64,000 nucleotides of DNA. It comes from Mesodorylaimus sp. YZB2_4 (Eukaryota; Nematoda; Enoplea; Dorylaimida; Dorylaimidae). The translations under genes were made by a program, and so were the position numbers. The DNA lies in the NCBI GenBank assembly GCA_030248295.1, contig JASANH010000996.1, positions 51,848 through 115,847 on the forward strand, read 5' to 3'. The notes beneath the pieces are model-generated. The model searched no databases and was not told the origin of the DNA. It was given only the letters and a program-made list of their open reading frames with translations. Positions 1,431 to 64,000 of the stretch are shown here, in pieces; positions within the stretch are counted from its first letter, which is position 1; each line of letters begins with the position of its first letter.

Positions 1431-3880
1431 TGAGAACGTGCGTCACTTACGCGTTGGAACTTCTAGTTCCTCTAGTTTGTCAATCCATGAATTATGTGAT
1501 GGATGGGGAATATTCTGTTTCAGGGCTTGATTATTTCACATCCGCTGGTGGAAATGCCTTCGATACATTTGTGCATGCGGTCACAGTACTGATGCAAAAA
1601 GGCCATGTGTTAAAGGAATGGCAACAACGTGTGAAGAAAAAGCTTCAATGTGGGAAAAATTATCTGAAAAATGGTTACAAGAGCCGTATTTTTATTCACT
1701 CAGAAGTTCCTGATCATTGCATTACCTACGCACTTAGCGAGGGTGAAAACGCGTCATATTTAAAGCAATGCACTAATTGACACGACATGGCTTGCAAAGA
1801 ATGCGAAGAACTATCAAATGCACTGTCTGAAGTCGCAAGCGCGGTAGAGAACGCTAAAATGTCAGACATCGACAAGGCGAATATGGAGTTTCAAGTAAGT
1901 ACAGTCACTACCAAAGCTAACAAGACGTGTCTCTTAAAAAAGTCAGGAAATATTTTGCGTCTGGATCAGGATTGTGACCAGCGACAAGGAACACGCAACC
2001 TGCAGTACATGACAAAAACAAATAAAACTGGGTGAATATAAACTACAGAAAAGACAAGCTCAACATCGTTTGTTTTCAGTTACAGAATGCTGAACGCGAT
2101 ATTCACATGTGGAAAGCGCACAAGCTACGTATAATTGATCAAGATGCTGCAAGGCTAGCAGCGGTCGAAAAAATGGAACCGGAAAAATCAGAACTTACAG
2201 TCATGGATTGGGCAATGAAGGTAGGAGTTGACTGAGGATTCTGAGAAGCGTTATTATACATAGATTTTCCAAGTCGTGAGATTACTGTGTTTGCTGTACA
2301 CAGCATTATAACACAGTTTTTGCAGTTTTTGCCAATGTGGTATCGAGAAGATATGTCAAAATTTTCCAGCAAACGTGGATTTCAATGGCATATCATTGTG
2401 GCAACAATGAAAACGTCAGACGGTAGATACAAGACGCGCACTATCGTTCATAATTTTGATCAGTGCACACAAGACAGCGCGGCTGTGCTTGCTATATTGC
2501 AAGACAGCGCGGCTGTGCTTGCTATATTGCAAGACAGCGCGGCTGTGCTTGCTATATTGCAAGACAGCGCGGCTGTGCTTGCTATATTGCAAGACAGCGC
2601 GGCTGTGCTTGCTATATTGCAAGACAGCGCGGCTGTGCTTGCTATATTGCAAGACAGCGCGGCTGTGCTTGCTATATTGCAAGACAGCGCGGCTGTGCTT
2701 GCTATATTGCAAGACAGCGCGGCTGTGCTTGCTATATTGCAAGACAGCGCGGCTGTGCTTGCTATATTGCAAGGCAGCGCGGCTGTGCTTGCTATATTGC
2801 GAGACAGCGCGGCTGTGCTTGCTCTATTGCAAGACAGCGCGCGTGTGCTTGCTATGTTGCAAGACAGCCTGAAACGATTGAAAACCGAAGTCCCAACTCT
2901 AGAATCCGTCTATTTGCGAGCTGATAATGCTGGCTGCTATCAGTCGGCGCAGACACTTCTTTCTTTGCCCGTTATTGCTGCGGAAGTGGGAATTTGCATA
3001 AAGCGGTTTGACTTCTCTGACCCACAGGGTGAAAAGACAGACTGCGATCGAATGGCTGCGACAATCAAGCGCCACGTCCATCTGTTTGTTGCCGGTAAGC
3101 ACGACTGTACTACTGGCCAAGAATTCGCGGATGCCATCGAATCACATAAAGGAATTGTTGGTGTGAGCATCCATTATGGTTCGCTTAAAGAGAACGATAA
3201 TGCGATTCAAGCAGAAAAAACCTCAAATCAAGGGAATCAGCGCGTTAAATAATTTTGGGTATACATCGGATAACAGAGTGGTGGCATGGGGAGCCTACAA
3301 CATCGGACAAGGAGTACTTATTCAAGAAGCACCTGGTGCTTACCACAATCACAAATTCGTTGAAAGCTATGGCACAACTCGTCATATCACCTGGCGGCAC
3401 CTCAGATCTGAAGTTGCTGATTTGCAACCAGAAAGTTATGAAGAAAATGAAATCTGCGAAGCTGATGATACTGTAGAAAATGAATCAAGCTCTAAAGAAA
3501 AACTGTTTTCATTTCCTGAAGATTGTTGCACAAAAACATACAAATATGCAGCTCATCTTGATAGACATCTTTCAGTTGGTAAGCATTAGTACGACTACCC
3601 AAAAGAAAGTCTTCTCGACTGTGCGAAAAAACATACAAAAAACAGCTCGATGATCCTGATCGCGCGAGCATACACGGCGAATGCTCCTCTTCTGGCATGA
3701 CAAGTCGTGATGGTGATCAGGCGGCTTTAGCACCTGGATGGGCGCTGCGACAAGAACGCAGAAACGTTAGATTCACAGAGAAGCAACGACAATATCTCAG
3801 AGACAAATTCCATGATTAGGAAGAAAGTGGCTCGAAATATACACCAGAATTTTCAGTTACTCTAGCCGGTTGACTGCGCA
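1431..3880 (+). pseudogene. Decayed multi-exon gene of a conserved metazoan family with a C-terminal C2H2-like finger
   Basis: Coding segments are open at 1431-1777 and 1787-1894 (ends at GTAAGT), 2080-2220 (after TTTTCAG, ends at GTAGGA), and from 2326 (after TTTGCAG) to about 3200. A one-base frameshift leads into 3215-3586, which ends in a zinc-finger-like FPEDCC...HLDRHLSVGKH. Motifs DNAGCYQS (about 2925) and DFSDPQGEKTDCDR (about 3010) are typical, from memory, of a large uncharacterised family common in cnidarians and lancelets, possibly transposon-derived. A TAG at 3587 interrupts the family, because the characteristic tail (GWAL..R...RFTEKQRQYLRDKF) continues in pieces to about 3880 with further stops. 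The exact function of the family is not known to me. A minisatellite lies inside the exon. Confidence 0.6.
2471..2860 (+). repeat. 30-bp in-frame minisatellite, 13 copies
   Basis: The unit AAGACAGCGCGGCTGTGCTT plus ten bases repeats 13 times. The first ten units are identical and the last three carry one to a few substitutions. In the gene frame each unit reads DSAAVLAILQ, and the sequence just after it (DSLKRLK) shows it grew from a single native motif. Because 30 is a multiple of three and the unit lacks stops, several other frames are open too; these are shadows. Confidence 0.97.
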
Positions 3881-5011
3881 AAAACGTCTGGCTGAAGACA
3901 GGAGCAACCTGCTTCTTACAGCTGATCAGGCAACAATTGATCGTGACGAGATCGCTGAGTGAACAAGAAGCGGTAGCAGCAGTCCATCAAGCAGTATATC
4001 AGCAGCTTTTGCACGAACGCAATTTTGATGCTTTACTTCATTGCGATCATGATAACGTGCAGAATCTGATGACTACGCAGGAAATGCATAACAAAGAAGA
4101 TATCGGTCCAACAGCGACAGTTCCTTAGTCAAAGCGCCTCAGGCAATCAAGAAAACGTTGTGCCCTTTACATTGCACAGCCTCGCCCTGGAAACGTTTCG
4201 ACTCGGATTTTGATGATGATCAGGAAGTACAATCGCATGCCTCGATCACCCCCAAAATCAACAACTTAGAACAGCCCGCAGCGTTCCTCAACAGAGAAAA
4301 CAAGTAAGAGATTTCTGAATAATGTCTGCGTTATTTTCCATGAGCCAGACTTTTTTAGAGCGCGCGTTCATAGGGGAAAATCCAACAGCATGTGATGTTG
4401 AAAGCATTTTCTGCTGCACTTGAGCCATTTCGTGTTGGTCTGCGAGCACTTTTATTAAAAAAAAGACAAGACTAGAGCCATGAAAGAGAGATATCACAAC
4501 AGTATCCGGAAGGAAGCGCATGGGAGATGTGAGTAGCCTTTGATCATTGACTGGCCAATTTGTGATTCAAATTTTATATGCTAGTGCAGGGTGTTGTGAG
4601 CAGAAATCTTCAATTTGAGCACATTGACAATGTTCTCAACAGTAGCACATCATCTGAAAACGAGAGTAGCCGCAATTGTGATACTGCCTTCGAGGACTTT
4701 TGCCTTCTGACTGCAGAAATGGGATATCCAAGTTTTGACCACGCGCCACGAAATCAAGACAAGGTACTGGCTTAATCATCATGCGAACACATAGACTTAT
4801 CGACAGCTAGAATGTTCAGTGAAAATGACACCCTAAGACCAACGTCAAATAATGAGCAGGAAGGTGAGTCGCTGTTGCATGCCGATGTCGCAATCTGTCC
4901 AGATGATTAGCTTTCTTCGATAGATTTTTCAAATGAGTTTGAATGTTCATCAAACGAGGTGCAACGTCAACGTAAGTGACGCACGTTTTCATTTTTTTTC
5001 TGATATTATCC
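3881..5011. other. Non-coding or decayed sequence, no gene recognised
   Basis: Short open frames at 3937-4128 (acidic, Gln/His rich) and 4578-4775 could be remnants of the upstream gene or unrelated. Neither shows a motif or a clear splice site. Confidence 0.4.
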
Positions 5012-5074
5012 CCCAATGCCTCAATTTCGGCATTGGGATCCCGAGCTATTCTTAGTCGCCATCCGCTAAAACTT
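5012..5074 (-). repeat. 63-bp dispersed repeat with a hairpin, inverted relative to 21296-21358
   Basis: The segment matches the reverse complement of 21296-21358 with only a couple of differences. It contains a palindrome, CCCAATGCC...GGCATTGGG, which would form a short stem. It may be the end of a small non-autonomous transposon. Confidence 0.8.
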
Positions 5075-5076
5075 GT

Positions 5077-5281
5077 GAACAGTGCAACGTTCTTTTTGCT
5101 CAGAATCGGCGACTGATCAACAGGATTGTACGAATAAAAAAACCATCGTTTGGTTGTGGTGAAGACCAGAACAGAAGTTGATTTGAATATCGAGGAGATG
5201 CCAGACGAGAGGTTCAGGATTTTATTTGGCATCCGGAAGAAGATCTTCAAAGCCATATTTGAGAAGCTCGAACCAATCGCT
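5077..5281 (+). repeat. Direct partial copy of ISL2EU transposase segment
   Basis: This is a near-identical direct copy of 9495-9699 and carries the same fragment of the transposase N-terminal region (EEMPDERFRILFGIRKKIFK). Confidence 0.9.
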
Positions 5282-5284
5282 GAA

Positions 5285-5964
5285 CCGATTCTGAGCAAAA
5301 AGAACGTTGCACTGTTCCTCAGATTTTGCACAGTTGTCGCATCGACAAAAACGCAGGTTGAATTCGATTACTTTTGACCTGTTCTTTTCTTCTTGAATAG
5401 AGTGAAGTTGATTTGTCAATGCCTTGATTTTGGATTCCTTTGGATGCACCTAGTACACACCACAGCGCTGTAATTTGGGGTTTCCTGAGTACAATGGCGT
5501 TTTTCAGCTGGCGGCGGCGTGCGCTGCGTATCAGAGAACAATACAGCGGATATGGGCCTTCTTCGCTCGGCAGTGGGTGATGTATGGGGGCGTTCAAGTT
5601 CCTCCATCGAAATGGGTCTTGCAGGAAAAGCGGCAGGTGGCGTTCGACTACGATCACGACGAGAACTTCGTTGCTGCATTCGTCGACGTACCACTATTGT
5701 CTCCGGCGAAGCATTATACAATGAAAAAACGTGTGCTCGTGTCGGGGAAAGAAAAACACTGCTTTTATTTGTCATTTTTTGTGGCAGTACAGGCCTTACA
5801 CGATGAGTAGTGGAGATAAGGGAATCAAAGAAACGACTCCCTGTGAGTCATTGATATTGCTATTGATGATTCGTGAGCGGTACTTACTATTTCCGCTAAC
5901 GGGAGATCATCATTCATCGTCATGTTTTACCACATCACCAAACGCTTATGCGCACTCGAGGGTG
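5285..5964 (-). repeat. Inverted copy (680 bp) of the 5' part of the ISL2EU element
   Basis: It is the reverse complement of 8848-9527, almost base for base. Together with the direct copy ending three bases earlier it makes a fold-back: the 195 to 240 bp around 5281-5285 turn back on the same source sequence. Confidence 0.93.
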
Positions 5965-5995
5965 AAGGGACACATTTTACGCGAAATGATTTACT

Positions 5996-6074
5996 GGCCC
6001 GCGAGTCGAACACTCGCCCGTAACTGCGCACCTGGCGTGAGAGGCAGACGCCTTACCCACCAGGCCACGAGGCC
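5996..6074 (-). tRNA. tRNA-like gene or pseudogene, possible anticodon CUC
   Basis: Read on the minus strand the sequence starts GGCCTCGTGGCCTGGTGGGT, giving a D-arm with GCC/GGC stem and an A box close to consensus. A loop CUCUCAC would place a CUC (Glu) anticodon. A perfect five-pair T stem (GCGAG/CUCGC) encloses a loop containing UUCGA, and a B box GTTCGACTC is present. The acceptor stem pairs at four or five positions only and the anticodon stem has mismatches, so this may be a tRNA-derived SINE head or a decayed gene. Confidence 0.45.
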
Positions 6075-6489
6075 GATTATCTGTTTTGTGGCCTTGTGAC
6101 CTGGGAGATCTGGTTTTGCGATTGTTGAACCTGTTTCCGACATCCCAGGAATTCGTGGTAGGCTGTTCAACGCGTTTCCGAAGGCGACACCTGCAGATTA
6201 GAAACGAACTGGCTAGAACTGGGAAAGAGTCAAATTTTGTATCACAAAACTCATACCAAAGTCATCCATAACGTTTTCATATGATACGGCTTGTCTTTCC
6301 TTTCGAAAACTCTCCAACGAAATAATTGCTGACGTCGTTGCATCAGCCAGATGGGCGTTGACAGTTTTATTTGGCGGACTCGACATTCCAATTATTGCTT
6401 GTTCTTCCAGCACTGCCAAAACACGCGCGTTCAAAATCTCCCGAATTTCTGAGTCATATTTTCAAATGTGCAGAATGGGAATTTTTTAA

Positions 6490-6787
6490 CGACCACCTCG
6501 GATGCTCATTCCTATATCGAAATGCTTTGAACACACCCATTGTGTTTCCGTGGCTCAAAATCGTCGGGTAAATTAAGCAATACCTTCCACACATTTCGGA
6601 TGTTCAAGTCCGACAGAAAAGTATGGTGAGAAAATAATTTTGATAAAAATGAACAGTGGCATTCGCTACTATCGCACAAATGACGTTGACACCAGGCGTG
6701 ACCGTCGCGTGAAATCGCTTTTCTAAACGTGATTTCTTCTTCTGATGAAACGCAGCTTTTAACAATACATCGAACTCCCATCACTTG
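6490..6787 (-). pseudogene. THAP-like zinc finger domain with a frameshift
   Basis: The minus frame gives GVRCIVKSCVSSEEEITFRK and later FLSDLNIRNVWKVLL, DFEPRKH. That fits the C2CH pattern of THAP DNA-binding domains (C-x4-C, a central W, then C-x2-HF). The closing CSKHF is present only after a one-base shift near 6540. THAP domains occur in transposases and in host regulators; downstream minus frames (to about 6210) are broken and I cannot assign the partner domain. Confidence 0.5.
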
Positions 6788-7372
6788 AAATTATGTTTTA
6801 GTAATCACATACACCTATTTAATCAAATCTAACCAAAATGTTCGTAATTTTGTTATCCCACATATGCAAAGCAGGCAGAACGAATGAATCGCATCCGCGC
6901 ACAAGTTGGATTAGCACCCGGGCTGTTTTGCAATAAGAAGATTAACTACAGTAGGAAATTTTGCACGTTTTTTAAATTTCTGGAAAACAGTGAAATGGTC
7001 TATTACGTATGTATTCAGATAAACTCGACGTACGACCTTTAGATGAGACATAGATAGATCTCAGACGTATTTGCATGCTCTATACATCTGACTGTTGTGC
7101 ATGCGAGGCCACGCATTCAAGCGGGTACAGATTCTGGATAGGGCGCCGAATCGTTCATCCAGACGAGATTCGGACCATAGCGCTGCGGGCTTGTCCACCC
7201 GCTCCGCATTTCAAAGCGACGATTTTGCCGATTGGCCATTGCATTCAGGGAGGGCGATTTCGAAACAACTCCTCCAAGATGCGGAGTACAGCAGGACTTA
7301 ATCCGAGATTTGCGATGCGGCCAGCAAAATCACTAATGGATCCTCACGCATTTAAATAGGTCCAGTTTGTCA
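6788..7372. other. No gene recognised
   Basis: There is only AT-rich sequence and short overlapping open frames. A 21-bp string (AAACAGTGAAATGGTCTATT) at about 6982 recurs at about 12889. Confidence 0.4.
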
Positions 7373-7655
7373 TGTTAAGTTAGGCATGCACACTTAATGT
7401 GTTCTGGATCAGGGGCTAGGCTCCCTGCTGTAACCCATTTTGCATTATGTCATTTTATCTGCACCACTGATTTAGACCTGATCTATTGGTGTTTGTTTTC
7501 GTTTTGACAGACCAGTTTTTCCAGGCCTGTGTATTACGAAGGGTATAGGGGTGTCTGTCCATGTATTAGTCAGTTCGTGCTAGCTGATTGCTCGAATAAA
7601 GAATCCACGCCACTTCGTATATACGTTATTTCGATCATTTTTCCTTCTTTTGTCA
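7373..7655 (+). mobile_element. Putative 5' LTR of a degraded retroelement
   Basis: The segment begins TGTTAAGTTAGG and ends TTTTGTCA, holds an AATAAA signal at about 7595, and is followed two bases later by TGGCTCGTATCGCCGG, which looks like a primer binding site complementary to a tRNA 3' end. No second copy is in the window, so the boundary call is tentative. Confidence 0.4.
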
Positions 7656-7889
7656 ATGGCTCGTATCGCCGGCACCCGTCGCAGTGCTAGATACTAGCCG
7701 TACCAGCATACATTGGGTAAGCATAATTGAGTGTGGTGTATTTAAGACTAAGGGGTAGGAACATCCCAGCCTAACTTCATCACAGCAGTGACGACTCGGT
7801 AAGTGATTCTGTGCTACTTTTTGTGATGAAAGTTATCCGTGCTCTTATACAGGATCCAAAAACACGGAAACGAGATAGAGAAAGTGTAG

Positions 7890-54958: not shown

Positions 54959-56450
54959 ATGTTCTATTCATTAGACAAACGCTGAAGCGCTATCAGGGTC
55001 TGAGAAACATTTAGTTATAAACACGCGAGAGAAATCACAAAGGTACAAAAACACGATTTCGAAAGTGAGAGTATGACGACCATGCAGTCTCCCAAGACAA
55101 CTGATTCCACATATGAATACACGAGAAAATGAAGCTTTGCTTATACGCATCAAAAAAGTGCTTCGGCATATTCAGGTGATGCGGCTCACAGGCTTGACGG
55201 GTGGCACGGGACACAGATCTATGTACAAATCGACTATTAGGAAAATCATGAAAGCCATGATAAAAGCGATAAAACTGACACAACTTGAGACCTTTCCTTT
55301 TGTCATGTGATGAAGTCCACCCAGCACGCCTAAGTCCCTCCTCGTAAGAAATAGTAAAGTCATTTAAAGACAGTCTTAGAGCATAAAATTGGGCGCGTTC
55401 TAATTCCCTGATATCTCTCTCCAGGATCGGATCCCAACAAGCAACACCATATTCCAGCACAGTGCGCAAACAAGCATCGTAAACAGATCCCAGAACCACT
55501 GGATGTACGTGCCTGCCCAATCTGCGTCTCATAGCCGCAATCATACTGATCGCTTTCCGAACAATCAAAGAAACGTGCTCACTAAATTTCATATCACAGG
55601 AAAATACAATGCCGAGGTATTTTACCTTATCAAAGAAATCAAGTTTCTGACCGTTCAAATACAAATCTGGATGGGAGGGAAGGACATTATGACCATAGCG
55701 AAACAGAATCGACTGGGATTTTGAGATGTTAAAATCAAGACCAGCTGATTTGACCCAGGACGAAATGAAATCAATCATAGGCTGAACAACGGTAATCAAC
55801 TCATCCAATATCTGGATGGGAACAAAAAGAGCCGTGTCATCAGCGTACGCTTGTAATAGTCGACGATGCGTTGGTGTACATGAAAATGTGGCTTCAAATT
55901 TCATGAGCAGATCGTTGATGTAGGCGATGAATAAAGTTGGACCAAGGACACTTTCTTGTGGCACTCCAGTGGTGACAGGGATATCAGCAGACGAATGACC
56001 ATCAATGACCACAAATTGTGAACGATTCGACAGGAACGAATTGAGCCAGCGAACCAGCTTGCAGGGGATTCGGGGGTCCCGTTAAAGCGACCCTGGAAGG
56101 TACTCGGTCGGAAGCCTTTTTGAAATCTAGAAAAACGGCCACAACGAGTTTGTATTTCTTCGAATTCAGATGGTCATGAATAAATTGACTGGCTGTGATC
56201 AAGGCCGTATTTGTACCACAACGCTTGGTGAACCCATGTTGATAAGGGGAAATTTTAAGGAAGGGTCGTAGAATGTTGTCTACGTGGCGCTCCAATAATT
56301 TTGAAAAAATGCATAGTAACGAAATTGGCCAGTATGCTTTCAAATCACTCTTGTCACCAGACTTAGGAACAGGCGTAACCTTGGCACGTTTCCAATAAGA
56401 CGGAAAGGATTCTCCGCAGACAGACCAAGTAGTATACAGTAGCACTCCAG
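54959..56450 (-). pseudogene. Non-LTR retrotransposon RT, 5'-truncated, with a frameshift
   Basis: Block 56445-56060 holds VTPVPKSGDKSDL and FLDFKKASDRVPS; after a shift near 56060, block 56012-55035 holds GVPQESVLGPTLFIAYINDL, LQAYADDTALFVP and YLGIVFSCDMKFSEHVS. It is related to, but clearly diverged from, the 49-51 kb copy. Its 3' region keeps a version of the shared AAACGCTGAAGCGC hairpin at about 54974. Confidence 0.83.
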
Positions 56451-57430
56451 AGGCCTGCCCCTGTGTATTATTCCGAGTAGCACCTGGTGACTCTTTAAAG
56501 TACAGGCCCCCTCTCCCCTCTAACCTAGAAGTACTGGCCCGCGCGTGGTGTACATGATTAGTTGCCTCTTATCCCCAACGGAGTTTAAAGCGTGTCTGTA
56601 GGTCCGTATGTATAAAGTAAACTTATGCTACATCTTTTACGCGCTAATTCGCATCACCGATAGGTCTCTAAATACGATCTAGGATCTATTCATATTTTTT
56701 AAAAGCCGTAAGGATAAGTGGCGAAGCTATTTTTCTCAATAAATCGTTAATCATTCTTCCCCACTCAACTCAGGTGCAAAGCTGGTTAACAGTGGTCAGC
56801 GCGTGTTCGTCAGAGCGCGTTAAAACGACCGGAAATGTCAGAACCAAAAAGTGTGCGAGCCTGAATCTGGATCTGATACTTTCTAAATGTTGCGGCTCAC
56901 AAAAGTCTGTCTGCGCGCACCCACTGGCTCGTAGGCTAATTGAAAAATGCCTGCCCGAAAAAGTGTTGTCCTTGATTTTGAATTTTAAATGAGCCTTTGT
57001 TCATACAACCAATTTAATTTTGTCTTGATTCGCTTATTCCTACATAGGCCCTTATTTCCAGGTCACTTTTCAATGTGTCAGCTTCTGCTCAAAATCACAA
57101 CGCGTGTTACTTTCGAAGAAAAATTGGCGAATAAACAATGACCTTCAATATATCAGCCCGGTCAACGAAAGCTTAAAGAAAGGTAAGATGTTTGTGCCAT
57201 TTTTAAAGGTTTATCTGGCTTAGAATGATATCAACTTCACTAAAATCAATTTTTAAATTCCCCCTTTTTCATTTTCATTTTATCTATACTGTTTTTCTTT
57301 TCGTCCGGGTGTTTTAGGAAGTAGCAGGATCGACAGAGGACTGCATATCTAAAATTTTTATCGCATTGTTTAGGCTTTGAATTTTGCTTGGCTTATATTT
57401 TTTGTATTCACTTTTCTTTTCCACCAACCA
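56451..57430. other. No gene firmly recognised; possible short plus-strand exons
   Basis: A frame at 56774-56992 contains GSQKSVCAHPLARRL. A block after a CCAG acceptor at about 57061 runs to a GTAAGATG donor at about 57182. Neither matches a family. Confidence 0.3.
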
Positions 57431-57436
57431 TATCAG

Positions 57437-58005
57437 TTAAATCAGCACGATCAATTTTGTCGGTGAAGGCCCGCTCTTGTTACATTCCTGGCAGATTGAG
57501 TTCAGTTTGATTATTTTTCTAGATTTTGGGATAAGGGCTGATATTGTTTCGAAAGCTGATCTCTCCATTGCCTGGTCCAGACTGGCTATAACCACTCTCA
57601 CCCCGCTATTCGCTAAAGCATCAGCCGTTTCGCAAATAGCTTTAAAAAAGTGTCCTGGTTTTTTAAAATATGAATTTTCTCAATTAGATGAGTAGGATAA
57701 GTGCTGTCTCATCTTAGTTCACCTTTATCTATACATACTATTTCGAACATCCTTATTTTCTCGAAAGCTGGCGCTAGTTCTGAGAGTGTCATAGACGCTT
57801 CTTCTTTTTGTCCACAATGGGAAACGACGGCGGTTTTCGAGTACCGCCCATCCTTGGCGTGTTTTATAAGCAGACAGTTTTTACCAGCTATAGAATATCG
57901 CCAGAACCGTCTCAAAAGCTCCGTCGTTTTTCCGCTGAAATTATTACCTTCACAATGCTTACTTTTCTAAGAGATCAGGGTTTACTTACGAGAACATGGG
58001 CCTAA
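57437..58005 (-). pseudogene. Thymidine-kinase-like gene (type II TK), spliced, catalytic Glu changed to Lys
   Basis: Three minus-strand exons are visible. One ends at 57990 with the start of the P-loop; an intron at 57935-57989 (GTAAGT...TTTCAG) follows; the next exon is 57723-57934; a second intron is 57655-57722 (GTGAAC...ACCAG); the last exon is 57437-57654. They carry the phosphate-binding Lys, TELLRRFWRYSIAGKNCLLI, DGRYS and SHCG, then the lid-proximal CIDKG, LANSGVRVVIASLDQ, ALIPKSRKIIKL and one zinc pair CQEC. In active enzymes CIDKG reads with Glu as the general base; here it is Lys (AAA, one base from GAA). The second zinc pair is not in this exon, so the end is missing or in an unseen exon. 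It would phosphorylate thymidine. Dual metabolism genes like this occur in hosts and in large DNA viruses. Confidence 0.8.
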
Positions 58006-58089
58006 TTATAAATTGGATTACTCCTCCCATATTACAGTTTTTCTTGCTTTTCTTTGCTCACCCTCTTTATATAGTTTATCAAGCCCTTG

Positions 58090-58394
58090 TGACTCATTTG
58101 AAAGTCATTTTTATCTTTGCCCTTTTCGAATCAGTCTGAATTAATTTGTCACTTTGGTATGCTGCTTTGACTCATTCGAAAGTTACACCGTCTGTGGCAC
58201 TGAATCATCCATTTTTTTTCACTTTTATTCCTGGTTTCTTTCCATTCCAAAAGGCGGATCAACGCTAAATTTTACAAACCAATCAGTATGAATAAATTCT
58301 CTTCTACAGTAGGTATATCGCATTTGACTCATCCGAAAGTTATGCTAATTTATTCTCCTACTTTCGCCCTCGGCACGTCCTCAGGGGTGACTCA
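58090..58394. promoter_or_regulatory. Triplicated AP-1-like motif between divergent TK and dUTPase genes
   Basis: TGACTCATTTGAAAGTCA (58090-58107), TGACTCATTCGAAAGTTA (58168-58185) and TGACTCATCCGAAAGTTA (58325-58342) share an 18-bp pattern. A fourth TGACTCA is at 58388. TGACTCA is the AP-1/bZIP consensus. Lying between two divergent genes, they may be a shared upstream activating region. Confidence 0.6.
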
Positions 58395-58594
58395 ACACTA
58401 ATTATTTTTCAGTGCACTACACTCTCTTACCGCTTTGGTACGCGTTTTGCTTGAAGGTTTTGCTACTAAATCATGTCATATATACGTGAGCAATACTTTA
58501 CATGCCTACTTTTTATCGGGATACGATTTCCTGGTCCTTATATATAGTCTTTTATTTTTCATGTTTCTCATTTTCTATTTTATCCCATTCTGAA

Positions 58595-58872
58595 ATGAGT
58601 GAAGCCCAGCGCGATTCTCTGTTTCTTGGTGCTCAAGTTAAAGATTTAGAAATGACTGCTCCTTCTCCAATCAAAAGCGAACATCGACCCATTCTTTTGG
58701 TCAAATTGCTTTCTCCTAATGCCCACGTGACGGCTCAGCTGACTTCAAAGTCTATTGGTCTTGATTTGTATTCACCAATCGATATTACTATTCACCCTAA
58801 CGAGGTGGCCGGTATAGATCTTCATATTTCCCTCGAGCTATTCAACTGGTTTTATGTGATTGTTTTTAGATA
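58595..58872 (+). pseudogene. dUTPase-like N-terminal exon or remnant
   Basis: From the ATG at 58595 the frame has an N-terminal extension of about 30 residues, then LLVKLLSPNAHVTAQLT, IGLDLYSPIDITIHP and AGIDLHIS. This is the first part of trimeric dUTPases, including motif 1 (GxDLYS) and the strand that follows (I..DL.I). Motifs 2-5, including the PRSG loop and catalytic Asp, do not follow, because the frame runs into a stop at 58870. Either further exons were missed or the gene is truncated. dUTPase removes dUTP so that uracil is not built into DNA. Confidence 0.6.
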
Positions 58873-59030
58873 AGTTGTGGATAGCGTATAAGATCCTTTT
58901 TTAAAAACGAGTTTTAATCTCTTGTCTTCTTTAATCAGTGTTTGTAGATTTTTGGAAAGGTTAATTCGCTCTTTTAAACCATTGCTTTCTCTGACCGCCT
59001 CAATAGCGGAGCTTATTCTTTTACAAACGG
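58853..59030 (-). CDS. Small basic minus-strand coding block
   Basis: The minus frame CKRISSAIEAVRESNGLKER, then LIKEDKRLKLVFKKGSYTLS is Lys-rich and looks like protein rather than noise. The pattern AI..V.......L......L..LK..FKKGSYTLS loosely recalls a linker-histone-like winged helix. It overlaps the 3' edge of the dUTPase block. No start or splice site was fixed. Confidence 0.3.
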
Positions 59031-59168
59031 TTTATATTGAAACTAATTAATGACGCAATAAAACAATCTATTTGATAAAGTATCATCACTTTCCTTTTCT
59101 AAATTTCTACTGCATACCCTATCCAACTAAACGTAGCCTATGATGTGCTATTTATTAACACCCGTTTT

Positions 59169-59660
59169 CTAACGAAAGCCGATTTTGACAAAGAGCACAC
59201 CAGGCCGTATCATTTGATGGCCCCAACGGGTGCACTTTCTTCCAATTAATAATACCACCGCCTTACAGGCGCGGCATTGGGGGAACCGGGCCGATAAGAC
59301 GGCTCCCCACTTTTGTTGAGTGGAAAAAGGTGCTACAGTTGCGCTGGCATTGTCCCTTACAGGCATGATTTCTTCACCTGGCTCTCCAGTGTTGTCGTTT
59401 CTCGTGGCTTCCTCCTCCATCGCGTGGTTCGCCATGTTTTCCTCCTCCTGCACTGTCTGACGAGGATTTTCTTCTTCAGTTCCCGCCTCGGATGGTGAAT
59501 TGTTATCACTATTCTCGCATTCGGGCAAGATCACGATAATGGCCGCGTTCTTGACTCGATAATGCCCTCCATCGTTCGTTTGTCAGCCTCTCGGATCGTC
59601 TCATTCGAAACTTCCTTGAGGGAAAGCAAAAATTCCTGCTTATTCGTTGCCATTTCGAAG
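59169..59660 (-). CDS. Acidic minus-strand protein, function unknown
   Basis: A short frame from ATG at about 59651 reads KQEFLLSLKEVSNETIREAD and stops near 59545. The frame 59534-59169 continues with ILPECENSDNNSPSEAGTEE and a strongly acidic stretch, then a Cys pair near the end. The two may be exons of one gene. No domain is recognised. Confidence 0.3.
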
Positions 59661-59969
59661 ATCAGTTTTTGCTCGGATGCTCTCTATAGGTTTTTTGCTT
59701 TCTTTTATACAGCTCGGTTAGGCCTTTTGGAATGCTTATTCATGACTTTTTTCCTTTTGGAAGATTCTGGAATGACCGTGATTGTACTGAGGCGATTTTA
59801 GCGGATTTCAATTGAAAGTTTTAAAAGGCTCATCTTAATCGGCTCTTTTTCGGAACCCCGGTTAACCTTTCTTCTTAACTTGATTTATAGGCTCCTACTG
59901 TTATTTGGCTTGGTTTTTGCCTCTTCATTCTAGGGTTTTGGTCTGTGAAAATTTCTGGTCAATCAGTCA

Positions 59970-60236
59970 ACTTTGCTTGGTGCTGGTATGGTTCTTATTC
60001 ACTTTAGGGTCCCTCGGAAATTTACGATTTGCCTCCTCTTTCAGGCCTGCTCGCACACTTTTCTTAGTTAGCAACAGTCGGGCAATTTTTTTTTACTATA
60101 GATCATTAATCGTTAACCCCTCAACCTGGCTCATTTCGTTTAGCCTCCTTTTTGCTTTTTTTCTTCTCCATTCTATTCTGTCGGAGTCTAAAGTTGAAGG
60201 CAAAATGCTTGAAAAGATTTCAACCATCATCGCGCT
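59970..60236 (-). CDS. Basic minus-strand coding blocks, function unknown
   Basis: One block begins with two Met codons near 60236 and reads VEIFSSILPSTLDSDRIEW, then RRKKAKRRLNEMSQVEGL. After a stop and a possible AG acceptor a second block reads IARLLLTKKSVRAGLKEEAN. The apparent plus-strand hydrophobic frame over the same bases is probably its shadow. Confidence 0.3.
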
Positions 60237-60312
60237 AGTATAAGTGCGAAAGAGATAAGTTTTTCTTTTTTCTTTTTGAATATCCTCGTTTCAGGGTTTT
60301 TCTTGGGTGAGA

Positions 60313-60868
60313 TCATGGCTACGATCTGGCACGGCACTCGAAAAGGGCCACAGCGTCGGTAACATCCTTGAATTCGTCCCGTGTCCAGCTTGTAAGAGAT
60401 ACTTTTGTTTGTGTGTTTTTCCGCCTAGTATTAGTTTTGCATTTTCCTGTGAAGGCAGCTGGGGTAACTTTGTCGCCTGAGACAGTTTTGGAGAGGATAT
60501 AGAAATATTATTTCGCGACTATGGTTTCGCCTTGGGATGTCAGCCAGTGAGAAGCTTCAAACCGCCGTGTTTAGAGCCAGGTTGTAAGAACAGAACTTCT
60601 GGACTGTAGTTTAAATACTGCGTTAATCATAAGCTGCCGTTCGGCTATCTGGGGTGTAGCCAGCAAACTTTGGCCGAGGGTTATGTTTGGTGTAAAACAC
60701 ACAACCAAGAGTTGGCTTGGGAGTGTCAGCGATACCACATCATCCATGAGCAGCATATTACATACCAAAATCCTACCGTTTTTAACGCGGCAACTTTAGG
60801 AATGCACCCCCTAGAAAGTTTAAGTCCGACGATGTCTGCTAGATGGCGGGAAGTTGGCGCCGCCTAGC
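60313..60868 (+). CDS. Cys/His-rich exons, zinc-binding candidate
   Basis: Blocks with possible splice sites include MATIWHGTRKGPQRR ending at GTAACA (60351), then LFRDYGFALGCQP, CLEPGC (ends near GTAAGA, 60591), and GYVWCKTHNQELAWECQRYH to the TAG at 60865. Cys and His spacing suggests metal binding. I do not recognise the family. The exon order is tentative. Confidence 0.3.
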
Positions 60869-61133
60869 AACGCATATTTGGGTGTCGCGTGGCTGGGTGG
60901 TGCGTCAGCTGTCTGGCGCCCCCAAGCCGGTTGGCGAGCTTGTCAGCAGCTGTCTGGCGGTTCCCCCCCCCCTAAGCGGTGGGTGTCTTGCTTTAGGGAG
61001 TTGGTCCTCGGAGACTGGTTATAGCCCGAGGGGGAGGGTGGTCTCGAATATTGCGCAAAAAAACTGATAGAAAAAAGATGATTAAAATTGACAAAAAAAA
61101 TTTTTTATCATTCAAGTTGAGCCGTTAACAGTA

Positions 61134-62093
61134 TTTGATAGGTGGAGGAACGAGCGTGGGAATATTTGGTCCGACTGGTAGGAGCCTTAAATTTTATAAA
61201 ATTTTGGGAATAAAAAAATGTATATTTTTTAGGTTCTGGCAAAACTTCGTTGCTATGTTGGCTATTAGTGGATTCGACCAGATATTTTGAAAACAAATTT
61301 TCGAAAATATATTTCTTTTATTCATTCTATCAAACTTTATACGATTATTTGAAAAAGAATTCGGGGGATAAGATTATATTTTATCGAGGATTCCCGGACC
61401 GTCAATTTTTCGAGGGTTACATCGAACCATTTTTGTGCGTCGTATTCGACGACCTGGACGACCAAGCTTACGCATCGGCTTTAATGAACGATTTTGTCAA
61501 AGGCGGTGTGCATCATAGCAACACGAATTTAATTTTGATAAGTCAATCGATTTATAACAAGTCCAAATTTGGAAGTTCGATTCTGAAAAATCTCAAAGTA
61601 AACACCCCCCAACGCCTTTTAAATCCTACTGTAGAACGGGCACACTCGGCGCGTTTGGCGGGAATTTAAACTTTTTTCTAAAAAAGTTTGTTGCCTTGCA
61701 AACATGTGTGATTTTTTTCAGGCTTTCGTATTTACTCGTTTTGCTCGCGATAATCATTCTTTGCGTACATTTTCGTATCAATCGAATTTTCCCAAAAGTT
61801 TTCTCTTGGAAGCTTACACGAGAGCGGTCGAGCGAGCCAGCGTGGACGAGTCAACAGAGGGAGCAAACCCAAAAATTGGACATCTTTTTCTCAATTATTC
61901 GCCCAGATTAGCTCCCTTTCTCGTGGTCACTGCTAATGTGATTAAGCCGCAATTTGAACGACGACAATCGGTCAATATTGATGGAAAGGAAGAAGAGAAT
62001 TACGTTCTTCAGCGGCAAAGAATTATTTCCGCATTGACTGTAGTTTATCCGCCTCCCGGGACCATTGACGCCTTTAATAATATTATGGCTTAA
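61134..62093 (+). CDS. Maverick/adintovirus-type packaging ATPase (FtsK-HerA fold), three exons
   Basis: Exon 1 ends at 61177 with a Gly-rich GGGTSVGIFG. An intron (61178-61232, GTAGGA...TTTTAG) splits the Walker A loop, whose Lys-Thr lies in exon 2 (61233-61597). Exon 2 also has the Walker B CVVFDDLDD and GGVHHSNTNLILISQSIY, corresponding to the LFxxGSHHxNxSV...TQN region of Maverick ATPases. A second intron (61598-61721, GTAAAC...TTTCAG) leads in phase to exon 3, with FARD, NFPKSFLLEAY and HLFLNYSP, matching the usual C-terminus. Such enzymes pump DNA into capsids. Catalytic residues look intact. The upstream start is not resolved. Introns in this gene are unusual for Mavericks. Confidence 0.78.
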
Positions 62094-62168
62094 GGCGATG
62101 CTAGCAATGCCGCCGATAACAAGGCTGGCTCCGCAAATGGAAAATCGGGACTGAAAACATTTTATCTT

Positions 62169-62438
62169 TTGAGTCAAGGAGATTTGGATATGCTCACAAA
62201 ATCGCCGTTGCCGATCACTTCTGGCGCTGCCAATATCGACAAGGTCAAACGGCGATGGGAGGACGAGGCCGAATCGATGGATCCCCGCATTGGTACCGGC
62301 CCAGTAAAAAAGCGAAAGCTGGTGATGGAAAGACGAGATTCGACTAGCCCCGATCCTCCTCCTAAGCTCTATCCCGTTTCTCATCGAGCAACCGTCAATG
62401 GTAATGGTAGTGGTCAGGCGAAAAATGATGCTTATTAA
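62169..62438 (+). CDS. Small ORF directly after the ATPase, basic, function unknown
   Basis: The frame is the same as ATPase exon 3 and is separated from it only by the TAA at 62091. It is open from just after that stop (GLKTFYLLSQGDLDM) and carries a nuclear-signal-like PVKKRKLVMERR. In Mavericks small genes of the form K.YYL....W..L sit beside the ATPase, which fits loosely. Confidence 0.4.
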   Translation: MSQGDLDMLTKSPLPITSGAANIDKVKRRWEDEAESMDPRIGTGPVKKRKLVMERRDSTSPDPPPKLYPVSHRATVNGNGSGQAKNDAY

Positions 62439-62444
62439 GAGCTT

Positions 62445-62744
62445 ATGAATTCAACCATTCCCTCCATGATTTCCCTGCCAGCCGCTGTAAGAATTCGCAT
62501 GTTAAAATTGGCCAAAATTTTTCACAAACTCAAAATTCGACTGCATCCAGAGACCGGCATTTTATCGTTTCCTTCTCTGCGCCCTAATTCTCCGGGAGGA
62601 ATGATTATGGGAAGTACGCCGATCGTCGATGTTTTACTGTATTTTAGCGTCGATTCGAGAAGCCACGCGCCCAGACCCAGGGAGCTGTGTAATTTGTGCA
62701 CATTTTTTTGTGTCTCGATCATAGCCCCGCTTTTCACCCTTTAA
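62445..62744 (+). CDS. Small ORF resembling the post-ATPase Maverick gene
   Basis: It begins seven bases after the previous stop and in the same frame. RMLKLAKIFHKLKIRLHPET then MGSTPIVDVLLYF recall the pattern ...GSNI.DLL.Y... and the P.......L end that I associate with a small protein next to the ATPase in Maverick-like elements. The match is by eye and weak. Confidence 0.35.
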   Translation: MNSTIPSMISLPAAVRIRMLKLAKIFHKLKIRLHPETGILSFPSLRPNSPGGMIMGSTPIVDVLLYFSVDSRSHAPRPRELCNLCTFFCVSIIAPLFTL

Positions 62745-62825
62745 AAAGGCCTAGCGTGCTTTTAAGGCAAATGCGAAAGTCGCTTTTGAATAAACTTTAG
62801 TCTGTTACGCATTGCGCACAAAATT

Positions 62826-63220
62826 TCAGAATATACATGGCCTCCTAGGGAAGAAATAAAGCTGAGACGCGTGTTTCGTGAGCATACTGTAACGTTTATG
62901 GTACAGTGCGTGCGTCTTATCTGTCTTGTTTTCTCGTTGCTGGAATGTTGACCCGTAAATGTGATGAATGGCGAGCGTAATCGTCTGGGCAATCTCGCCC
63001 CTGTACACGTCTTGATTGATGAGGATGCTCCCAATTATGTCGACTCCTCGGTCTGTTTGGAATGTTTGGACTGCTGGGCTGTTTACTGTAGATTGTTTAG
63101 ACTCGAACGGTCGATCGGCCGAACTTTGCTCCTAAATTTTTCCAGCCATTCGGTAGTGTGTGCTTCGGGCTGCGCTTTCTCTTGTTTTGTAAAAATAAAA
63201 CTGACTTCCTTTGGTTTCAT
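62826..63220 (-). CDS. Minus-strand gene in two frames, function unknown
   Basis: An ATG at 63220 opens KPKEVSFIFTKQEKAQPEA and EWLEKFRSKVRPIDRSSL, which stops at 63083. The neighbouring frame continues VQTFQTDRGVDIIGSILINQ and YRGEIAQTITLAIHHIYGS to 62826. A single-base shift or a tiny intron would join them. It starts 36 bp from the divergent RRM gene. Confidence 0.35.
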
Positions 63221-63256
63221 CTATTCTTTGTCCCATTTAATGAATCCATTCCAGTC

Positions 63257-63941
63257 ATGGCGGAAATTTATGTTGGAAATTTGCCAAAAAACATTACCAA
63301 CGACGCTTTTAAGAATCATTTTGCAACGTTACCGATTATGTGCGAGTGGATGAGCGGCAAGCTGCCAAGGTTCGGGTTTATTACGTTCACTCATGCTGAT
63401 CACGCCGCCGAGGCCATCCACCGTTTTCACCAGTCTACGCTTTTGGGTTCCACCATCCTCGTCGAGCATGCCCGCAGGTCATCGCTTCCACCCGCCTCGG
63501 CTACCCCTATCACAACTTTATCGCTGTCCACTGCCACTGCCCGTGGTTCGCTCCCCTCGGACGATCGCCCTTGGTTACCCTGGTTCCCAATTCCTCCCGG
63601 CGAAGACGATGACGATGACGATGACACCTCCGCTGACCACTGCCCGCTCGCCTTGGACGGCGCGCCTCCATCCGATAATGATCGCCCTCGACTGCCCCGG
63701 CCCCCCAAATTTCCCTGATGACAATGATGACGATGCTCCGTACGACCAGGGCGAAGAAGAAGCCTCGGCCGCACCAGCAATAAATGATGTAGACGCGCCT
63801 TTGGCTCCTGCAGCTAGTGACGACGCGGCTAAAGCTTTGAAGGGTGCAAATACAAAGTGTGTTAGTCGCGCAATTTTCAGCCAAAGCCAAGAATTCCGTG
63901 AAGATTATCTCGCTCAGATGAAGCTGCCACACAGGTGCCGT
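63257..63941 (+). CDS. RRM RNA-binding protein with acidic/proline-rich tail, possible +1 frameshift at CCC-TGA-T
   Basis: The ATG at 63257 opens an RRM: RNP2 is IYVGNLP and RNP1 is FGFITF, about 45 residues apart, followed by AIHRF and LVEHARR. A Ser/Thr/Pro stretch and an acidic block GEDDDDDDDTS come next. The zero frame ends at TGA (63716). One base further the +1 frame continues with DDNDDDAPYDQGEEE and runs open to 63944, keeping the acidic character. The junction is CCC TGA T, similar to the antizyme-type +1 shift site. An indel is the simple alternative. The role of the protein is unknown. Confidence 0.6.
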
Positions 63942-64000
63942 TGACTTGGTCGTGGTCTCATGCTGCTGCCACAAATGGCTGCTATGAAAAATGCTCTGAT

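Follow-up and report, generated by a model that had tools for sequence, protein, structure and literature searches.

At the right end of a 64,000-nucleotide stretch of DNA from the nematode Mesodorylaimus sp. YZB2_4 (contig JASANH010000996.1, here C286:51848-115847; the whole stretch is called the window, and its right edge is the end of the contig), genes resembling thymidine kinase (TK), dUTPase and a packaging ATPase lie close together. Do they belong to one mobile element, and how did the two enzymes come to be there? Mavericks (Polintons) are often treated as transposons, although several groups of eukaryotic DNA viruses are believed to have their root close to them. Our reading, to which we give a probability of about 85%, is that the window holds the remains of two Mavericks, one of which (B) is inserted into the other (A1), and that A1 stems from a lineage into which a dUTPase and a spliced TK were taken up and kept in head-to-head arrangement. 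The genome searched comprises 145 Mb in 1067 contigs, and all family match counts within it are lower bounds; C and L numbers are our own handles for contigs and loci.

Two nested elements at the contig end

The features on which this reading depends are as follows.

56428..60749: left-hand part of element A1, up to where B is inserted; 90.8-93.7% identity to L010, L019 and L016
56428..56436, plus strand: end of A1, AGTAGTATA, common to L010, L003 and L016
60749..64000, plus strand: element B, running from its terminus AGCAGCATA up to the contig end; same start in L036, L031 and L030
57437..57966, minus strand: TK frames, a dead copy; Pfam TK, compared with L010
57935..57989, minus strand: TK intron 1, 55 bp, at MFS/GK, phase 2; by eye on the sequence
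57655..57722, minus strand: TK intron 2, 68 bp, at IDE/G, phase 1; from sequence comparison
58490..58873, plus strand: shortened dUTPase frame, lacking 266 bp at 58840
61214..62741, plus strand: B's gene for the packaging ATPase, interrupted by stops; two-piece alignment to the 370-aa frame of C704

The left edge of A1 opens with AGTAGTAT in the window, L010 (C325), L003 (C367) and L016 (C353), and the flanks all differ. Because the same end recurs with different flanks, we regard the edge at 56428 as the end of a mobile element. A1 has both an (AGT)2 end and several insertion sites (four copies, different flanks). Copies matching 56428-60749 were found on C325 (L010), C639 (L019) and C353 (L016), of which L019 lacks the first 159 bp of A1. 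A non-long terminal repeat (non-LTR) reverse transcriptase reading, made by eye on the minus strand, spans the stretch around the A1 end. A 9-bp candidate for the second end of A1, in L040 (C325), was dropped, its flank being without a match.

Homology to the A1 copies breaks sharply at 60749, where B begins. The start of B is shared with three other loci, with flanks that differ between copies, and two A1 copies (L010 and L019) continue through the point equivalent to 60749 without B. Because of this shared start with different flanks and the two empty A1 sites, we conclude that B was inserted into A1; it is nested within A1, with its junction at 60749. Positions 60749-63082 are 88.9-93.7% identical to C585, C353 and C211, two of these three loci stopping before 63082, and it is as far as 63082 that the DNA match of B to other loci extends. 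The first 300 bp of B are also matched in L017, at 70%.

B has a defined terminus and an A32/FtsK-like packaging ATPase, although the Pfam score of the latter is itself below the cut-off (frame 61214-61666, Pox_A32, E 0.017). This ATPase, proposed to be of Maverick type in the initial annotation of the window, has at least 116 matches in its own genome. The small open reading frames listed there after the ATPase are present, but are not separate genes: 61635-62093, 62094-62438 and 62439-62744 are one frame interrupted by stop codons, and they align with the remainder of the single 370-aa ATPase frame of C704, a unit described below.

The TK-like gene, the dUTPase-like start and the short introns of the same annotation all hold. 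Pfam recognises TK in the minus-strand frames 57709-57966 (E 1.4e-14) and 57437-57679 (E 4.7e-14). The gene carries IDKG in place of the IDEG of close copies and a frameshift near the zinc region; its second intron, 68 bp here, is 62-66 bp long in three close copies. The dUTPase start (frame 58490-58870) is weak when taken alone (Pfam E 0.032, below the cut-off), but its L010 homologue is a full dUTPase (E 4e-30). The TK, dUTPase and ATPase copies of the window are dead. Across the six A1 pairs, Ka/Ks (nonsynonymous to synonymous change) spanned 0.21-0.53 in the TK exon-1 frame, 0.23-0.55 in the dUTPase frame, 0.19-0.96 in the HMG-like frame and 0.53-1.5 in the 3' TK frame. Few changes underlie these ratios, some intron codons fall within the TK frames and L016 contains stops; the values weakly suggest past constraint on the dUTPase and the first TK frame of A1.

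TK and dUTPase within Mavericks elsewhere in the genome

TK and dUTPase stand beside capsid and ATPase genes in C344, where a contiguous 10 kb (L013) contains dUTPase, TK, LIIPP, LPK, ATPase and capsid frames, LIIPP and LPK being names given here to two conserved small frames. The C344 ATPase and capsid were recognised by 55% and 57-65% identity to intact frames of C579 (220 and 436 aa). The C579 ATPase passes the Pox_A32 cut-off (E 3.1e-5). The C579 capsid has no Pfam match, and we take it to be a capsid from its position beside the ATPase and from Maverick capsid motifs. In C913, the capsid-ATPase block is 90.6% identical to L013 and the LPK-LIIPP-TK block 91.6 and 93.9%, so that between C344 and C913 the block with TK has diverged as much as the one with the capsid; about 5 kb of extra sequence separates the two blocks in C913, the comparison covers pieces of C913 outside positions 2901-7699, and the C913 dUTPase was placed by coordinates. 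C385 contains capsid, ATPase, TK and dUTPase in the C344 order across 13.8 kb, again by coordinates. C344, C913 and C385 share the order capsid-TK-dUTPase, from which C250 departs. Capsid genes, whose absence from paralogous copies had been named at the outset as evidence against such an element, are present in C344, C385, C913 and, as a fragment, C250.

On C704, TK and dUTPase lie between inverted repeats in a unit of 19.5 kb. The terminal inverted repeats (TIRs) are 484 bp long and 96.7% identical, and end in AGTAGTATA at contig positions 2 and 19544; the left flank within the contig is one base. TK (E 1.3e-36, frame interrupted once) and dUTPase (E 1.3e-31) are in tandem, and the unit also encodes an exonuclease (DNA_pol_A_exo1, E 2.6e-6), an rve integrase and PolB-like, ATPase and capsid-like frames. 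The ATPase is homologous to that of B and to that of C579 (27%, E 9e-13). As this is the sole unit seen with both ends, the 'giant' size first proposed finds no support. Tandem repeats of about 141 bp occur within the TIRs (L009 2-485, with its counterpart in L035).

A third type of TK is found in C510 and C352, which share the end AGTAGTAAAG with different flanks; an integrase match lies 6.1 kb from the TK of C510. The ends of A1, C704 and C510/C352 all start with AGTAGTA.

At least 39 matches to the TK family were found in the genome, grouped into 26 places, together with at least 65 to dUTPase, at least 62 to PolB and at least 25 to the C704 integrase family. In a tally computed from hand-entered coordinates, dUTPase lies within 2.5 kb of TK at 13/26 places, the truncated dUTPase of the window being under the search threshold and outside this count. 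A capsid, ATPase or integrase match lies within 15 kb at seven: C704, C385, C344, C250, C913, C510 and the window, the last by way of B.

Several results weigh against the reading of A1 and its relatives as Mavericks. The remaining 19 of the 26 TK places have no core gene within 15 kb, and none of the listed PolB matches lies within 15 kb of a listed TK. Neither a second end or second TIR of A1 nor a 6-bp target duplication was found in the stretches of C325 examined (L040, L010), beyond which the end may lie. PolB, integrase, capsid and ATPase genes of A1's own were not seen in L010 and L040 (C325) or in L019 and L041, stretches that stop short of a second end. C344 and C913 have broken capsid and ATPase frames, and in C250 a capsid fragment lies near TK in opposite orientation, with no dUTPase match. 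Within C704, the integrase (E 1.9e-7, 31.7 bits) falls just under the cut-off of 32.6, and the ATPase (Pox_A32, E 0.0014) and the PolB-like frames (E 0.034) are also below theirs; the PolB-like label leans in addition on a motif. Against the profile of the C579 capsid, the two capsid-like frames of C704 align in order but weakly: hhalign gives E 0.003 (probability 10%) and 0.008 (5%), hmmsearch E 0.011 and 0.045.

Origin of the enzymes and alternative explanations

A TK tree was built from the 3' exon region (13 hand-picked rows, 82 columns). Eight TKs of the A type, the lineage of A1, form one group (support 92/91), and C510 and C352 a second one (100/100). The TK that is probably the host's own, carried by the 980-kb contig C22, pairs with P0001 from an outside eukaryote (95/96). 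Grouping of the element TK with the host gene, which had been named as evidence against an element origin, is therefore not seen for the A type; the C704 TK does fall on the host side, joining the C22/P0001 pair with weak support (75/79). Intron positions also differ. A-type TKs are interrupted at MFS/GK (phase 2) and IDE/G (phase 1), whereas the nearby host intron follows IDEGQF (phase 0), and the TK of C704 lacks an intron at IDEG. The intron-2 pattern was found in 6 of the 12 loci tested and the intron-1 pattern in 2 of 12, the latter pattern being too narrow for A1, whose first intron was taken by eye. The C704 dUTPase shares 45% identity with a gypsy-like enzyme of the same genome and 35% with A-type dUTPases; between two of the latter (A1 vs L015) identity is 51%. 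Separate gains of the enzymes by different lineages would be the simplest reading of these data, although not a proven one.

With the C704 TK, the best PDB entry was 2j87 (127.9 bits), presumably the vaccinia enzyme, with human TK1 chains at about 110 bits, and a protein search recovered one of nine candidates, P0001 (eukprot). The C579 capsid retrieved 8 of 2593 candidates, six of them from 'lgn', on contigs of 1.6-4.4 kb. Viral-contig scans with the C704 PolB and capsid pieces gave no relatives and PHROGs no matches for 10 proteins. Nothing meaningful came from PDB with the capsid profile, the C704 capsid piece or the ATPase of C704.

Three other explanations were considered. The first, which we judge very improbable, is that TK and dUTPase are pieces of host genes, or passengers, that lie by chance among repeats. 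Although the genome is repeat-rich, dUTPase also occurs in gypsy-like elements, most TK places (19/26) lack a core gene within 15 kb, and C344 and C913 could go back to one duplicated stretch in which these genes were neighbours by chance, both enzymes lie inside the C704 inverted repeats, TK and capsid blocks are equally diverged between C344 and C913, TK-bearing A1 copies have independent flanks, and the probable host TK stands apart in tree and intron position. To the second we attach the same small likelihood: the TK-dUTPase pieces would be relics of a large DNA virus, invaded later by Mavericks. TK and dUTPase are indeed common in large DNA viruses, and the C704 TK scores higher with 2j87 (presumably vaccinia) than with human TK1; yet AGTAGTA begins the A1, C704 and C510/C352 ends alike, and no hallmark gene of large viruses was met in the stretches read, in which no search was aimed at such genes. 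Least credible of all is that one element in the window holds TK, dUTPase and ATPase, as the initial annotation had it, since despite their lying within 3.7 kb and the occurrence of such sets in one element elsewhere (C344/C913, C704), the sharp change of homology at 60749 and the B start common to L036, L031 and L030 oppose it and the two empty A1 sites refute it for the window.

TK, by supplying dTMP and raising dTTP, and dUTPase, by removing dUTP, would benefit an element that replicates its own DNA by a protein-primed polymerase, as they do large DNA viruses, and this benefit would be expected chiefly in non-dividing cells low in dTTP. The GT-AG introns imply transcription and splicing in the nucleus, where the element genes would be both transcribed and spliced. 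Enzyme activity, benefit and the formation of virions are putative. Tentatively, and at slightly less than even odds, we suggest that TK entered two or three Maverick lineages (A-type, C704 and possibly C510/C352) in independent events, and dUTPase at least two, with A-type TKs keeping spliceosomal introns, and that selection has acted on the Mavericks of this animal as on DNA viruses that replicate in the nucleus and equip themselves, as large DNA viruses do, with a toolkit for DNA precursors. Genes for nucleotide metabolism argue for bursts of DNA synthesis in dTTP-poor cells, which is a virus's problem. If true, such recurrent acquisition of the two enzymes would illustrate, in genomes of small size, a step toward the independence of DNA viruses from the host cell cycle.

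Accompanying frames and relation to known systems

Several compact open reading frames had been noted on both strands, and three further features are among them.

59169..59683, minus strand: HMG-box/zinc-ribbon-like frames of A1; weak Pfam matches of the L010 homologue
60280..60749, plus strand: A1 gene for a Cys-rich protein, severed where B is inserted; 231-aa frame in L010
63101..63718, plus strand: RRM frame of B; RRM_1, E 4.5e-9

The HMG-box/zinc-ribbon matches (L010 2573-3085) are weak, with E values of 0.006-0.07. The 231-aa Cys-rich protein (L010 1264-1956, C325) has at least 135 matches in its own genome, and none of 59 candidates drawn from 5.8 billion proteins was a homologue. Small secreted-looking Cys-rich frames and membrane/coiled-coil frames occur in or beside the A1 copy of C325 (L040 1486-1848 and 2344-2835; L010 6108-7281), with no Pfam match above the cut-off. 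The RRM protein of B (window 63101-63944; L042 3312-4388) has a repeat-rich middle and a conserved C-terminus; in the window, a C-terminal stretch resembling the C211 copy follows the RRM in another frame and reaches 63944. A B-type ATPase match lies within 2 kb of the RRM match on 6 of the 14 contigs with an RRM match, and RRM protein identity among these ATPase-adjoining copies is only 38-48%.

Also in this genome, dUTPase domains lie within very long frames (L032, L033) that were read by eye as gypsy-like pol. Gypsy-like dUTPase frames lie 1.5-2.2 kb from the contig start in C92, C174, C192, C538, C111, C128, C78 and C76, as if these eight contigs broke at, or ended in, one retrotransposon family.

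In titles and the beginnings of abstracts we found no report of both TK and dUTPase in a Maverick; an earlier report is possible, the adintovirus paper, the nematode Polinton paper and one Polinton review lying outside this scope. In a term search of PMC8097293, PMC4642659, PMC7805220, PMC12721341, PMC12220804, PMC9952930, PMC11071308, PMC3671162 and PMC4028283, 'thymid' and 'dUTP' were absent.

LTR retrotransposons with a dUTPase (PMC6431247) resemble the present elements in that the enzyme is borne by a transposon, and the C704 dUTPase is nearer to the gypsy-like enzymes than to the A type, but their domain lies within the pol frame and no TK was seen in L032 or L033. Teratorn (PMC5601938) is likewise a viral genome living as a transposon; it combines a herpesvirus with piggyBac, however, and TK and dUTPase are absent according to its authors, who read this absence as a result of endogenization. 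The segments of bidnavirus-class parvoviruses (PMC11071296) are small animal DNA viruses with TK-like or dUTPase-like genes and a link to Polintons through PolB, but they are segmented and related to parvoviruses, and are not Mavericks. The elements also resemble the Mavericks/Polintons of vertebrates (PMC8097293); virions of Mavericks, according to that paper, have not been observed. The vertebrate set shares (AGT)2 ends, its commonest end motif, as well as packaging ATPase, capsid and accessory genes, long TIRs as in C704 and, as candidates there, PolB-like and integrase genes; its members differ in having no introns in intact elements, whereas the nematode elements carry TK and dUTPase, and a TK that is spliced.

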